From: Pseudomonadota bacterium
GTDB lineage: Bacteria > Desulfobacterota > Binatia > UBA1149
DNA: 64,000 bases
Assembly (NCBI GenBank): GCA_014382245.1
Contig: JACNKC010000074.1
Span: 1 to 64,000 of the forward strand
Reading direction: 5' to 3'
Shown: piece by piece, positions 21,822 through 57,559 of the stretch
Layout of the letters: each line of letters starts with the position of its first letter
How positions within the stretch are numbered: the first letter of the stretch is position 1
The notes under the pieces: model-generated
Database searches by the model: none
What the model was told of the DNA's origin: nothing
Seen by the model: only the letters and a program-made list of their open reading frames with translations
Program-made: the position numbers and the translations under genes

Positions 21822-23531
21822 ATGGCGCGCGAGATTTCGAGACGGGCTTACGCCGACATGTACGGCCCCACGGTTGGTGACCGCGTGCGCCTGGCCGATA
21901 CCGAGCTGATCATCGAGGTGGAGGAAGACCGCACCACCTACGGCGAGGAAGTAAAATTCGGCGGCGGCAAGGTCATACGCGACGGCATGGGGCAGTCGCA
22001 GGCCACCCGGGCCGAGGGCGCGGTCGACACCGTGATTACCAACGCGCTCATCCTCGACCACTGGGGCGTTGTGAAGGCCGACATCGGTATACGCGACGGA
22101 CGCATCGCGGCGATAGGCAAGGCCGGCAACCCGCAGGTGCAGCCGGGCGTCGACATAATCATCGGCCCGTCCACGGAGGCCATAGCCGGCGAGGGCAAGA
22201 TACTGACGGCCGGCGGACTCGACGTCCACATACATTTCATCTGCCCGCAGCAGGTGGACGACGCGATTGCCAGCGGCATAACCACCATGATGGGCGGCGG
22301 CACGGGCCCCGCCACGGGCACCAACGCGACCACCTGCACGCCCGGGGCCTGGCACATAGGCCGGATGTTGCAGGCCGCCGAGGGACTGGCGGTCAACCTT
22401 GGTTTTTTTGCCAAGGGTAACGCGAGCAGGCCCGAGGGGCTGCGCGAGCAGGTGCTGGCCGGCGCTTGCGGGCTCAAGCTGCACGAAGACTGGGGCACGA
22501 CTCCCGCGGCCATCGACTGCTGCCTGTCGGTGGCCGACGAGAGCGACGTGCAGGTGGCCATACACACCGACACGCTCAACGAATCGGGTTTCGTTGAGAA
22601 CACCCTGGCCGCGTTCAAGGACCGCACGATTCATACTTTTCACACCGAGGGGGCCGGCGGCGGACACGCGCCCGACATAATCAAGGTGTGCGGTTACGCC
22701 AATGTGCTGCCGTCGTCCACCAACCCGACGCGCCCGTTCACGGTAAACACCCTCGACGAGCATCTCGACATGCTCATGGTCTGCCATCACCTCGATCGCA
22801 ACATTCCCGAGGACGTGGCGTTTGCCGAGAGTCGCATACGCCGCGAGACCATAGCCGCCGAGGACATACTGCACGACCGCGGCGCGTTCTCGATGATAGC
22901 CTCTGACAGCCAGGCCATGGGCCGCGTGGGCGAAGTCATAACTCGCACCTGGCAGACTGCCGACAAGATGAAGCGCCAGTTCGGCGCCCTGCCCGGCGAT
23001 AAGGGCGACAACGACAACCTCAGGGCGCGGCGCTACGTGGCCAAGTACACCATCAACCCGGCCATCACGCACGGCATCTCTGATCACGTGGGTTCGGTCG
23101 AGGTCGGGCGCCTGGCCGACCTCGTGCTGTGGGACCCCGCGTTCTTTGGCGTGAAGCCGGCGCTGATCATCAAGTCGGGCAGCATCTCGTCGGCGGTGAT
23201 GGGAGACCCCAACGCGAGCATTCCTACCCCGCAGCCGGAGTACCACCGCCCGATGTTCGGCGCGCTTGGGCGGGCGCTGACCGAAAGCTCGGTGAGCTTC
23301 GTCAGCCGCGCGGCGCTGGATGCCGGGCTCGGCGAGTCGCTGGGGCTGGCGCGCCAACTGCTTGCGGTCAGCAACACGCGCGATATCGGCAAGAAGGACA
23401 TGCTGCTCAACGACGCCACGCCCGAGCTGGAAGTCGACCCCGAAACTTACGAGGTCAGGGCCGACGGCGAGCTGCTGACCTGTGAACCCGCCACCGAGCT
23501 GCCCATGGCGCAAAGGTACTTTCTTTACTGA
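21822..23531 (+). CDS. ureC: Urease subunit alpha
   Basis: The 569-aa catalytic subunit, hydrolysing urea to ammonia and carbamate. ATG 21822 gives [20 protein letters not shown]. Nickel ligands are intact: His136 and His138 in DVHIHF, the carbamylated Lys219 in GLKLHEDWG, His in [10 protein letters not shown], His in [13 protein letters not shown], and Asp in [11 protein letters not shown]. The flap His322/His323 is in MVCHHLDR. It should be active once loaded by UreDEFG. The frame stays open upstream into ureB, but that part is not UreC. Confidence 0.97.
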
Positions 23532-52447: not shown

Positions 52448-55372
52448 TCAGGGCAGCACCCCGTTGGATATGTTGATCCCGATCTCGTGGTTGCGGGCCG
52501 GGCCGCCGAATCCCGCGCCCGAATTAATCGCCGGTGACGTGGTGGCCGTGTAACAGTAGATGCTGATCGACTGGTAGTTGTCGGCGTTGCCAGAAATCAG
52601 GCCGGTTCCCTCTATCAACGGGGCAAAACATTCCAGGTTCGTTTCGATACAGTCGGCGGCTCCAATGAAATCATCGTCGTTTCCAAGGAAACCGTCGAGG
52701 CCAGCTTCGCATTGGCGGCGTTCTTCGCAAGGCCCCTCACAGCTGTCGCCCACTTCGCAGTCTGCCTGGCTCGTGCAGGGAGTACCGGCGGTGACGCAGG
52801 TGGCATTACAACCCGCCCCGATGCTGGATTTATCACAGACGCGGAAGGCGTGCCCCTCGCCCGTGCAACTCGTCTCGGTGGGCCCCGTGGAACATTCGCG
52901 GTCCTGGGGCCACGGATCCCCGGTCTTGAGTTCGCACAGCGGTACGCAGAGTCCACCGGGGCAGGCATCCACGCAGGATCCGGTTCCGCAGGTGGCGCTG
53001 CTGGTGCAGGCAGCGTGCTCGGTCGCGGGGTCGCCCTCACAATGGCTGGGGTTCACGCAGCTGCTACCGGGGCAGTCGGAGTCCTCGTCGCAGGCACGGC
53101 CCGCGTTAGCACCCCCTGCGCAGCTGGCGAAGAATCCGCTACTGGTGGCGTCTGCGCATCCACCGCCCGAATTTATCCCCGCGTTGCAACCCGGGTTGCA
53201 TGAGTTGACCTGCGTAGGCACGCCACCCGCATCCGGGCAGGGGCAGTCATACAATTCGTAACCAGCCGACGAGCAGGGCACGCCGTCGACAGCAGCGTCC
53301 AGGGACAGGGAGTGAGAGGTCTTGGGCAAGTGGCGTATGCGTAGCCCGAACTCACCCGATATGGTCTTGCCCTCGTCGGGCGGGCAGTCGTTAGACACCG
53401 AGCCGAAGACCGGATCAACGTCGCCCACCTCGCAGGCGATTCCGTTATTGGCATACCCCGCGCCACCAAAGCAGATATCAGACAGGTTACAGCTGCTGCC
53501 CGGGCAGTCGGCTGACGCGATTGTGCAGGTTTCACCTCCCGGGCAGTCGCTGCTGAAGCGGCACTCGTCACCGCTGGTACTACAGCTGCCACTGCAAGGC
53601 AGGCCTTCGAAGGTGCCGCCGTCGCAGAAGCCGCCGCACACCGGGCAAGGGGTGGCGGTATTTATGCCCAGGTAAACCTTGCTGTTAGCTTCGTAGAAGT
53701 ACTGGCTGGCGCCGGTCTGCATGTCCTGCGTCCCTGTAACATCGGTAGCCATTTTCTGCAGCGTGCAAACTGGCGTTCCACCGTTAGATACCGGAAAGGG
53801 GCTGCTGCTTAGAAGGAACACGCAGTCGGCGCTTCGGTCGCACTGGCCACGACATATTTCGTTAGCTCCGCAGTCGGCCTGCGAGCTGCAGTTGCTGACC
53901 GGGCTCCCACCCGAGTCGTAGCACTGGGCCTGGCAGTCGTCGTGGTCGGTGCAGCTCGCACCGGCATCACTGTTGAATGAATCGCAGGTTCGGCAGTCTT
54001 CGTCCCTGAGGCAATCGCCCACGCCGGGTGTGTTTGAGCAAGTGGGCCTGGTGGTTGCCGTTACCGTGCAGAGGGGGTCAGCCGAGCTACCAGTGCAGGT
54101 GTTGTTGGTCAGCTCACTGCAGTCGCAGCCCGTCCTGTCCAGTACAAACCCGCCCTTGTTTGGTGTGGCCTGGTCGTGCGAGCCGCCTATCCAGCCAGCG
54201 TCAGAGTCCGAGGCAATAGCGTCGGCTTGTATCCGATAGCGCGACACGTTTCCACAGGTGCACTGAAAAAGGTCGCCCGGTGGAAAACACAGCCCGGGAC
54301 AGGAAGAGTCGTCGACACCGTCACACTCCTCTCCCAGTAGCATACTGCTGCTCGGCCCCTGGTTTATGACATTATCGCCGCAGACCGCCGTGGGAGGGTA
54401 AGCGGCTTCAACTATCGACCGTGTTGAGTAGCTGCGGTCCGGGGCCAACTCCTGGGAATCGCCCAGCTCAGCCGCCGCGGCTGCCACGCAATCCTGGGCG
54501 TCCGCTATCGAGGTGACGCCACCTACCCCCTCTCCGCACAGGTCTAGTTCGAGGATATCGGAAGCAGTGCATTTCTTCGCTATGTCAGCGCGCAGCTTGG
54601 CGTCGGCCTTGCTTATTTTGCCCGCCAGCTTGGCGTCGTCGGTGGTGCAGGTACGTGGGTTGCCCAGCGTCTTGCCGTTGTTGATCGAATCGCGGCACTT
54701 GGCCACCCCCTTTGCTACCGTAGAGGCAAGCTTCACTGCTGACTTGGAGATCGTTGACAGGCACTTGCCCGTCTCCTTCGAAAGACCGTCGGCGTTGCCT
54801 ATGGATCCGTATACCAGGTCAACGAGATCAGAGCCGCTTGCAGAACCGAGCTGGCCGGCACACTCGCCTAGCTGCGAGCCGTTCAGGAGTGCTTCACCCA
54901 GCGTCGATTCGCAGAACGGGCCCGGGTAGTTGATAGTGGCCATGTCGAAGGCACCGTCGCCCTTGCATAGTTCGTTGGCCGCTCCAGCGAGCGGGGGACA
55001 GAGGTTGTCGGCAACGCAGTCGATTTCCGACACCGTGCAGGTGCTGCCGCAGCTCTTGGCGGCAGTCGCCGTGGCCTTGGCCTTGGCCTTGTCTATTTTT
55101 GCCTGGCCCTTGGCGTCAGGGCACGAGCCCACGGCTTTTCCGCTTATGTCGGCGTCGCGGCACTTGGCCAGTGACTTGGCCGTGGTCGAGGCGGCCTTGG
55201 TGGCAGCCTTGGACACCTTTGAAACGCACTTGCCTTCGAGCTTGCTGGTAAGAGCGGCTGCGGACGCGCTGGTCGGTTGGAGCACTACGCCGCCGGTAAA
55301 GACGGCCACGGTGGAGAGTAGCGAAGCCACGGCCAGATGGGTTAGCAAAGAAGAGTGGTATACGTTTTTCAT
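52448..55372 (-). CDS. Large secreted Cys-rich protein
   Basis: 974 aa with a signal sequence (about residues 10-37). Residues 45-330 hold two copies of a Lys/Cys helical module (CVSKVSKAATKAASTTAKSL and CLSTISKSAVKLASTVAKGV, each followed by KCRD), as in the protein at 11273-12844. A CGDNVINQG...EECDG module comes near 340, as in the M14 peptidase. A very Cys-rich region (about 400-880) follows, with many C..D.DC..C and CxxxC pairs. The protein ends in a beta-rich domain (AINSGAGFGGPARNHEIGIN). It should be a disulphide-rubbery surface or extracellular protein. No enzyme motif is seen. A GGAGG site precedes the ATG. Confidence 0.78.
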   Translation of the reverse strand: MKNVYHSSLLTHLAVASLLSTVAVFTGGVVLQPTSASAAALTSKLEGKCVSKVSKAATKAASTTAKSLAKCRDADISGKAVGSCPDAKGQAKIDKAKAKATATAAKSCGSTCTVSEIDCVADNLCPPLAGAANELCKGDGAFDMATINYPGPFCESTLGEALLNGSQLGECAGQLGSASGSDLVDLVYGSIGNADGLSKETGKCLSTISKSAVKLASTVAKGVAKCRDSINNGKTLGNPRTCTTDDAKLAGKISKADAKLRADIAKKCTASDILELDLCGEGVGGVTSIADAQDCVAAAAAELGDSQELAPDRSYSTRSIVEAAYPPTAVCGDNVINQGPSSSMLLGEECDGVDDSSCPGLCFPPGDLFQCTCGNVSRYRIQADAIASDSDAGWIGGSHDQATPNKGGFVLDRTGCDCSELTNNTCTGSSADPLCTVTATTRPTCSNTPGVGDCLRDEDCRTCDSFNSDAGASCTDHDDCQAQCYDSGGSPVSNCSSQADCGANEICRGQCDRSADCVFLLSSSPFPVSNGGTPVCTLQKMATDVTGTQDMQTGASQYFYEANSKVYLGINTATPCPVCGGFCDGGTFEGLPCSGSCSTSGDECRFSSDCPGGETCTIASADCPGSSCNLSDICFGGAGYANNGIACEVGDVDPVFGSVSNDCPPDEGKTISGEFGLRIRHLPKTSHSLSLDAAVDGVPCSSAGYELYDCPCPDAGGVPTQVNSCNPGCNAGINSGGGCADATSSGFFASCAGGANAGRACDEDSDCPGSSCVNPSHCEGDPATEHAACTSSATCGTGSCVDACPGGLCVPLCELKTGDPWPQDRECSTGPTETSCTGEGHAFRVCDKSSIGAGCNATCVTAGTPCTSQADCEVGDSCEGPCEERRQCEAGLDGFLGNDDDFIGAADCIETNLECFAPLIEGTGLISGNADNYQSISIYCYTATTSPAINSGAGFGGPARNHEIGINISNGVLP

Positions 55373-56121: not shown

Positions 56122-56700
56122 TCAGGGTTGCAGCAGGCGGCTGGTCCACTGCCCGTTTCGCCTTACGAACAATTCCCGGTGGTGCAGACGTGGTTCCCGC
56201 CGCGTCCAGAATTCGATGCGCCGAGGCTTGATCGAGTACCCCTTCCAGTAGTCGGGGCGCTTGATGTCCCGGCCCTCGCTGTCTTTCTCGAGGTGATGAT
56301 ACTCGGCCATCAGCCGTGAGCGGTCGAACAGCGTCCGGCTCTGTTGTGATACGGCCGCGGCCAGCTGGCTGCCGCGGGGACGGGTGGCCCAGTACTTGTC
56401 GGCCGTCGCGGCCGACAGTAGCGTGGCGTTTCCTTCTATGCGTACCTGTCGCCCTGTAGCGTCCCAGTAGAACGCCAGCGCGGCGGCCGGGTTGTTGCGC
56501 AGCTGCTCTCCCTTGTCGCTCCGGGCGTTGGTATAGAAAACAAAACCGTCGGGGCCGGCCTGCTTGAGCAACAGGTAGCGCAGCGTTGGGCGGCCGTGGC
56601 TGTCTACCGTGGCCATGGCGCAGGCTTCGGGAAGGGCTACGCCAGCTCGCTTGGCTTCGGAGTACCAGCGATTGAATCGTTTTACGGGGTCTATGGCCAT
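56122..56700 (-). CDS. pdxH: Pyridoxamine 5'-phosphate oxidase
   Basis: 192 aa FMN protein. AMATVDSHGRPTLRYLLLKQ, GFVFYTNARSDKGEQLRNNP, YWDATGRQVRIEGNA, SQQSR, DYWKGYSIKPRRIEFW and RLHHRELF cover the family from end to end. It makes pyridoxal 5'-phosphate using O2. The gene is 28 bp downstream of the GrdB-like selenoprotein on the same strand and is probably co-transcribed with it. Confidence 0.94.
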   Translation of the reverse strand: MAIDPVKRFNRWYSEAKRAGVALPEACAMATVDSHGRPTLRYLLLKQAGPDGFVFYTNARSDKGEQLRNNPAAALAFYWDATGRQVRIEGNATLLSAATADKYWATRPRGSQLAAAVSQQSRTLFDRSRLMAEYHHLEKDSEGRDIKRPDYWKGYSIKPRRIEFWTRREPRLHHRELFVRRNGQWTSRLLQP

Positions 56701-56728: not shown

Positions 56729-57559
56729 TTATACGGGGTAGCTCATCTTGTCGCCGCTGTACTCGGCCATTTCTTCGCGACCAAGTCGGGCGACTGCCTG
56801 CAGGCACAACTCCAGGTCGCGGGCCTGGCCTTGCCTGTCGCCTGGTCGACCTATGGGCGTTCCCAGTGGTCGAGGAAAGTGCAGTGTGCGCGGTACTCCG
56901 AGCTTGCGCGTCGTTTCGGGCAGCAGGGTGACCATGAGGGTGGCAATGCCGCGCGCTTCTATCGCTCTTGCTACCAGGCCGACGGCCCGGTGGCAGTAGC
57001 CTCAAGCCGGCGTGAGTATTGCGAGGTCCACTTCGTCGGAGACCATCGCTTCGGCCACTTCGGGAGCGTAGCGCTCGATGAGCTCGCCAGGGTCGGGTAT
57101 GCCGCCACTGAAACTGAAGTGACGGGGCCCCACGCTGCCTATCTTTCCGTCGGCGGCAAAGTCGTTGAGCACGGCCAGTGGCAGCATCACGCCGCTGTCC
57201 AGTTCAACGTTGTCCGTGTCGTAGAACATGTGGCTGACCAGCAGCCGGGAGGGGTCTACATCTCCCGGTATCACCCGGTAACTGCAGTCGCCTTCATCGA
57301 CAGCGAGGTTGAAGGGCTGCTGGTCGTCGAGTATGAGCCCGCCCGAGTTCACAAGGGCTACCCGGCATTGCTTCAGCGGCTTCAGTAGGGGCGAAAACGG
57401 GACTTCGCTGTGCCAGCGGTGGTTCTCGCGGGCGGCGTACCATTGGTAGATACCCGGCGTGTTGCGTTGCATCCACAGGGCGACCCGGGCCACGGCCCGT
57501 TTAGACCAGGCTACCTCGCTCGAAGAGAGTGGCGCTCGGCTGTGGGTGGGGGATTGCAT
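56729..57559 (-). CDS. GrdB-like selenoprotein with an in-frame TGA (Sec186)
   Basis: Conventional calling stops at TGA 57002-57004. Reading it as selenocysteine gives 276 aa with Sec186-Gly-Tyr-Cys189 in ILTPA-Sec-GYCHRAVGLVARA. The same frame continues through ARGIATLMVT and PRPLGTPIG to TAA, matching the full length of small proteins annotated as glycine/sarcosine/betaine/D-proline reductase selenoprotein B family. The N-terminal part has FSPLLKPLKQCRVALVNSGG and VGPRHFSFSGG. In relatives this position is Cys or Sec, as far as I recall. A hairpin follows the TGA at once. The substrate is unknown; no other glycine-reductase gene is nearby. The start ATG 57557-57559 lacks a clear ribosome site. 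Confidence 0.85.
56970..57000 (-). promoter_or_regulatory. Candidate SECIS element of the GrdB-like gene
   Basis: It begins 1 nt after the TGA. The outer stem GCUAC/GUAGC (57000-56996 with 56974-56970) is followed by a 6-nt 5' bulge (56995-56990). The inner stem CGGGCC/GGCCUG (56989-56984 with 56980-56975) has a GUC loop at 56983-56981. Folded by hand. The apical loop is about 19 nt from the TGA, similar to bacterial SECIS spacing. Confidence 0.65.

Follow-up and report, generated by a model that had tools for sequence, protein, structure and literature searches.

The window, a stretch of 64,000 nucleotides (contig JACNKC010000074.1), encodes on its minus strand a PrdB-like protein whose reading frame is interrupted by a single TGA codon. 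The features of the locus are as follows.

56729..57559, minus strand: PrdB-like selenoprotein gene, 276 aa plus a TAA stop, delimited by the frame, the family models and homologs aligning across the TGA
57002..57004, minus strand: in-frame UGA decoded as Sec186, the U in LTPA-U-GYC; orthologs in the genus, the two host paralogs and almost every homolog have this codon at the same aligned position
56993..56995, minus strand: codon of Cys189, the second residue of the UxxC motif, invariant in two alignments (A2 and A4)
56973..56991, minus strand: bSECIS apical hairpin with an 8-bp stem and the 3-nt loop GUC, identified from the fold, the z-score against synonymous shuffles and covariation
56122..56700, minus strand: gene for a PdxH-type pyridoxamine 5'-phosphate oxidase (PNPOx_N, 7e-23), 28 bp downstream of the selenoprotein gene on the same strand

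The frame begins with ATG (57559-57557) and ends with TAA (56731-56729). The TGA (57004-57002) is codon 186 of 277, and its reading as Sec gives the 276-aa product, in which the motif around Sec186 is ILTPA-U-GYCHRAVG; U186, like C189, is invariant in both alignments. The sequence-only reading had joined the two open frames into one full-length protein with these same boundaries, which proved correct; the strand, not given there, is minus.

Taken alone, the open frame past the TGA would be weak evidence for a selenoprotein; at this base composition 90 codons remain open by chance in about 9% of cases. Homology in the same frame appears decisive, and the selenoprotein reading can be regarded as settled because the part after the TGA aligns in the same frame in relatives. 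Two relatives from the same genus, with 93-95% identity, keep the TGA, the length and the TAA stop. The dN/dS ratio after the TGA is 0.19-0.30 in genus pairs, indicating purifying selection, and the excess of synonymous changes in this part is significant in two of the three genus pairs (Fisher p = 0.003, 0.004 and 0.07). The host genome encodes two further paralogs with TGA at the same position (UPVC and UPFC). Family matches were found in 97 of 395 sampled genomes of the phylum and, as read from the match table, nearly all of those spanning the position contain exactly one in-frame TGA. The codon is present at the aligned place in all of the 61 fetched regions except one (L074:8965-9768, genome G360), where GGA (Gly) replaces it with the SECIS hairpin intact, reflecting either a sequencing error or a recent change. 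Among the best 80 loci of a scan of named genomes, 80 proteins carry U in the motif, two entries fitting the motif pattern imperfectly; Bacillaceae, Poribacteria, Chloroflexota and SAR324 are represented. The comparison with Cys forms, proposed from the sequence alone, was possible with homologs from Roseomonas and Haematobacter, which have Cys (TGC) at the Sec position; such forms are rare, and the family is nearly all Sec. In a midpoint-rooted tree the two Cys homologs nest inside the Sec forms, a placement consistent with Sec-to-Cys loss.

The hairpin lies just downstream of the UGA, its loop (GUN) beginning 18 nt past this codon, and the G is first in the apical loop, as in bSECIS elements. 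In the window sequence alone its stability is moderate (z -1.7 versus shuffles). For 53 homologs, comparison with synonymous-codon shuffles gives a mean z of -1.62 (s.e. 0.17) at the UGA, with small values in the rest of the gene. In 51 aligned sequences, 96.6% of cells are paired; the figure is 85.4% for shuffles and 11-48% for slid versions. The 46 double-change cells, versus 10.9 in shuffles, indicate covariation. The hairpin is absent from the two Cys homologs, and an Rfam scan for SECIS produced no family match. The SECIS hairpin is built into the codons of the catalytic motif and has been kept over large distances.

The host genome (2.94 Mb, 95% complete) encodes the components of the Sec machinery, namely tRNA-Sec (69 bits, anticodon TCA), SelB and an adjoining SelD. 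The selD gene beside SelB (L012:369-1502, G000:C125) contains an in-frame TGA of its own, in GG-U-ASKLGP, and its product is likely itself a selenoprotein. Since the UGA is conserved, the bSECIS covaries and SelB, SelD and tRNA-Sec are all encoded by the host, decoding of the UGA as Sec186 in a real selenoprotein gene is strongly supported, as the sequence-only reading had proposed together with a UxxC redox site. An alternative in which the TGA terminates the protein and what follows is a frame of its own or one in decay could appeal to the chance length of the open frame, but its probability is negligible, and it was rejected because conservation beyond the TGA refutes it, with the SECIS, the Sec machinery and the Sec/Cys exchange also against it; homologs ending at this codon and decay beyond it, both named beforehand as fatal to the Sec reading, were looked for, and the homologs continue past the TGA with the following sequence undecayed.

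Co-occurrence of the family with SelB within the phylum says little, because SelB is nearly saturated there (346 of 395 genomes), being found in 88 of the 97 family holders and 258 of the 298 other genomes (p = 0.4). Outside the phylum, all seven Bacillaceae or near-Bacillaceae genomes with an ortholog contain SelB, and B. subtilis, from the control set, is without it. In the ortholog-bearing Bacillaceae-group genomes G396-G398, which also have SelB, strong FdhA matches are listed without an in-frame TGA, and the PrdB-like protein may be one of the few uses of Sec in these organisms.

The best model for the window protein is that of PrdB, TIGR04483 (149.6 bits, 9e-44), although the score lies far below the curated cutoff of 300 bits. 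True PrdB controls reach 399.7 bits (encoded next to prdA) and 310.2 bits (Peptoclostridium, no adjacent prdA), while the scores of the host paralogs and of other stand-alone relatives range from 87 to 169 bits. The match to Pfam GRDB (PF07355; 40.1 bits, gathering cutoff 22) is confined to residues 51-183 and profile positions 212-345, and the GrdB models TIGR01917/TIGR01918 are missed, with scores of 40.5 versus a cutoff of 602.2 and 43.2 versus 65.45. The designation 'GrdB-like' given from sequence alone has to be refined, as the closest model is PrdB, whose cutoff the protein misses. A weak match to Thioredoxin_3 (E 0.16) proves nothing. Phylogenetically, the window protein clusters with a protein from one uncultured bacterium and with Bacillaceae proteins (support 100/100), its nearest relatives being the Sec forms in Bacillaceae, and the true PrdB clade is separate (100/100).

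Genome-wide searches found no member of PF09338 (PrdA/GrdE) or PF04723 (GrdA) in the host or in 24 of 25 family-holding genomes. The exception, G359, contains both families and also a full GrdB, whose own partners are encoded on the same contig. PF09338 was likewise found in none of the eight genomes with the closest orthologs, in a search without a separate positive control, the same model having matched in G359. Heme-copper oxidase subunit I is encoded in 22 of the 25 family-holding genomes (21 over the cutoff), and two COX1-type heme-copper oxidases are present in the host, which, together with the adjacent PdxH-type gene, make an aerobic host likely. These data agree with two earlier expectations, that the organism is aerobic and that the protein is not a classical Stickland enzyme, the latter being upheld by the genome-wide absence of GrdA and GrdE/PrdA, which extends the earlier remark that grdA, grdC and grdD are not in the vicinity. 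Judged from its sequence and genomic setting, the window protein is PrdB-like but not PrdB, is not a Stickland enzyme, and is a stand-alone UxxC selenoprotein.

The PdxH-type gene is probably co-transcribed with the selenoprotein gene; the order of the two is kept in two genus relatives but not outside the genus. No family-wide operon partner was recognised, as the 60 same-strand neighbours are spread over 119 Pfam families, with no Pfam family present in more than four members, and the gene context points to no substrate. Some neighbours recur locally, such as luciferase-like oxidoreductases in one clade and a sigma factor in some Bacillaceae. In Poribacteria (L134, L136, L137, L139, L150 and other loci) same-strand neighbours lie within about 150 bp of the PrdB-like gene, and three of those tested are Gfo/Idh/MocA-type oxidoreductases, located on both sides of the gene in L134. 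Inspection by eye also placed metal-efflux, MerR-like or MerA-like genes near the gene in several clades of the family (L055, L060, L061, L063, L070, L075, L104 and L110). There are no proline genes near the window gene. Elsewhere on the minus strand, the window contains a match to the Rfam 5' ureB sRNA (21974-22263, 84 bits), probably a mere reflection of the conserved ureB coding sequence, and a gene for a secreted-looking protein of 974 aa with many Cys-rich repeats (52448-55372).

The AlphaFold2 model of the protein (pLDDT 87, pTM 0.86) places U186 after a strand (179-183) and before a helix (187-202) whose first turn contains C189. Foldseek and a PDB sequence search gave no significant match, and the catalytic assignment therefore rests on the relation to PrdB and GrdB, whose chemistry (PMC13188914) is the basis of the mechanism proposed here. 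We consider it somewhat probable (about 60%) that the protein is a stand-alone PrdB-like selenoprotein in which Sec186 and Cys189 carry out reductive chemistry without PrdA/GrdE or GrdA. From the motif and homology, the two residues would form a selenolate/thiol pair. The selenolate would attack an electrophilic small substrate and cleave either a C-X bond, with X being N, S or halogen, or a bond equivalent to it. Cys189 would then resolve the intermediate to an Se-S bond, which could be reduced by cellular thiols, either thioredoxin or a low-molecular-weight thiol. Such a cycle would use neither a pyruvoyl subunit (PrdA/GrdE) nor GrdA, so that the enzyme would be neither a D-proline reductase nor a glycine reductase.

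Three other functions were considered. The position of UxxC at a helix start is also that expected if the protein handled thiol-disulfide or peroxide chemistry, in a thioredoxin- or peroxiredoxin-like role, instead of reducing a C-X bond. Its stand-alone nature, the pyridine-nucleotide disulfide oxidoreductases (4 of 60) and rhodaneses (3 of 60) among the neighbours, and the scattered contexts, including metal efflux genes and the adjacent sigma factor in some Bacillaceae, would suit this role, which is possible but the less favoured assignment, as no match to the Trx fold was obtained and the conserved residues away from UxxC (H110, D121, R198, E201, R224, G233 and G237) suggest a specific substrate pocket. 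Reductive detoxification of xenobiotic or metal-organic electrophiles seems rather unlikely. For Synergistota, a GrdB-like selenoprotein system has been put forward as the means of C-F cleavage (PMC10838667), with the GrdB-like FarB acting on fluoroacetate, and in several clades the family lies near genes recognised from sequence as metal P-type ATPases, RND efflux and MerR/MerA-like proteins; however, FarB has a GrdE-type partner, FarE, the window protein has none, and the neighbourhoods vary. Quite improbable is a function as D-proline reductase PrdB, or as the B subunit of another amino acid reductase, with a distant PrdA-like partner that escaped recognition. TIGR04483 is indeed the best model, and about 74% of the length aligns with true PrdB at 34-36% identity, most active-site columns being common to both, but the 149.6 bits fall short of the 300-bit cutoff exceeded by both controls (400 and 310 bits), the PrdA/GrdE family is absent, the PrdB clade is separate at full support, proline genes are missing from the vicinity, and the family occurs mostly in genomes with heme-copper oxidases.

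A broader proposal, put forward tentatively and at somewhat less than even odds, is that these proteins constitute a separate selenoenzyme family of oxygen-respiring bacteria, operating without pyruvoyl or GrdA-type partners and catalysing an undescribed reductive bond cleavage, and that in some Bacillaceae such a protein may be a main reason to keep the Sec machinery.

Proteins of this kind are already known: PrdB-like UxxC selenoproteins are abundant in sea-water data, with 42 genes counted in the Sargasso Sea (PMC1088965) and 235 Sec and 110 Cys forms in the GOS data (PMC2398784), and are filed as proline reductase. The accessible text of these two papers contains no statement on absent partner subunits. 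'Proline reductase' is also listed for Anaeromyxobacter and Geobacter (PMC1794560). A literature search, thin in its coverage of subscription journals, found nothing on PrdB without PrdA. What this analysis adds is the search for partner subunits, the covariation of the SECIS and the orthologs in Bacillaceae. Given that the protein lacks its partner subunit and that genes for oxygen respiration occur in most tested genomes of the phylum, the name proline reductase is very probably wrong, at least in the phylum studied and in Bacillaceae, for selenoproteins that rank among the commonest in sea-water metagenomes. The presence of orthologs in cultured Bacillaceae (Neobacillus and Cytobacillus) and in Pseudalkalibacillus makes the function of this widespread selenoenzyme testable.

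The Sargasso Sea and GOS 'proline reductase PrdB' proteins (PMC1088965, PMC2398784), published as a count under that name, resemble the window protein by their published description: they too are relatives of PrdB/pfam07355 carrying UxxC, they are abundant in surface sea water, and Sec forms outnumber Cys forms. The UGSC family selenoprotein (NF041046) also has UxxC, is common in sea-water data and weakly matches true PrdB (1e-5), but the window protein gives no match to that model. The plasmid-encoded 'glycine/sarcosine/betaine reductase selenoprotein B family protein' of Roseomonas and Haematobacter is of similar length and has no adjacent prd or grd genes, and differs in having Cys for Sec and lacking the SECIS hairpin. 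In GrdB (PF07355, TIGR01917/TIGR01918), the C-terminal part of the GRDB model covers the segment corresponding to residues 51-183 and Sec occupies the corresponding region; unlike GrdB, which has about 430 aa, the window protein has 276 aa and its genome contains no GrdA or GrdE, and the GrdB of G359 reads TSTUGTGTRCG instead of LTPA-U-GYC.

PrdB, the Sec subunit of D-proline reductase (TIGR04483), is of the same family by sequence and has UxxC at the same place, and the columns D121, P127, G152, E201, G204, T207, R224, G233 and G237 are common to both proteins. The true PrdBs examined also use TGA: it is found at the Sec position of prdB next to prdA on plasmids of Ligilactobacillus, Enterococcus and Terrisporobacter (L205, L207 and L208), the first two being lactic acid bacteria, and the same 8-bp hairpin is absent from these three genes. 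A plasmid of Peptoclostridium acidaminophilum (L204) carries a prdB that exceeds the PrdB cutoff and is not adjacent to a prdA gene. Unlike PrdB, the window protein reaches half the cutoff score, has an N-terminal extension, belongs to a separate clade, is encoded without PrdA or a prd operon, and has its relatives mostly in genomes with heme-copper oxidases.
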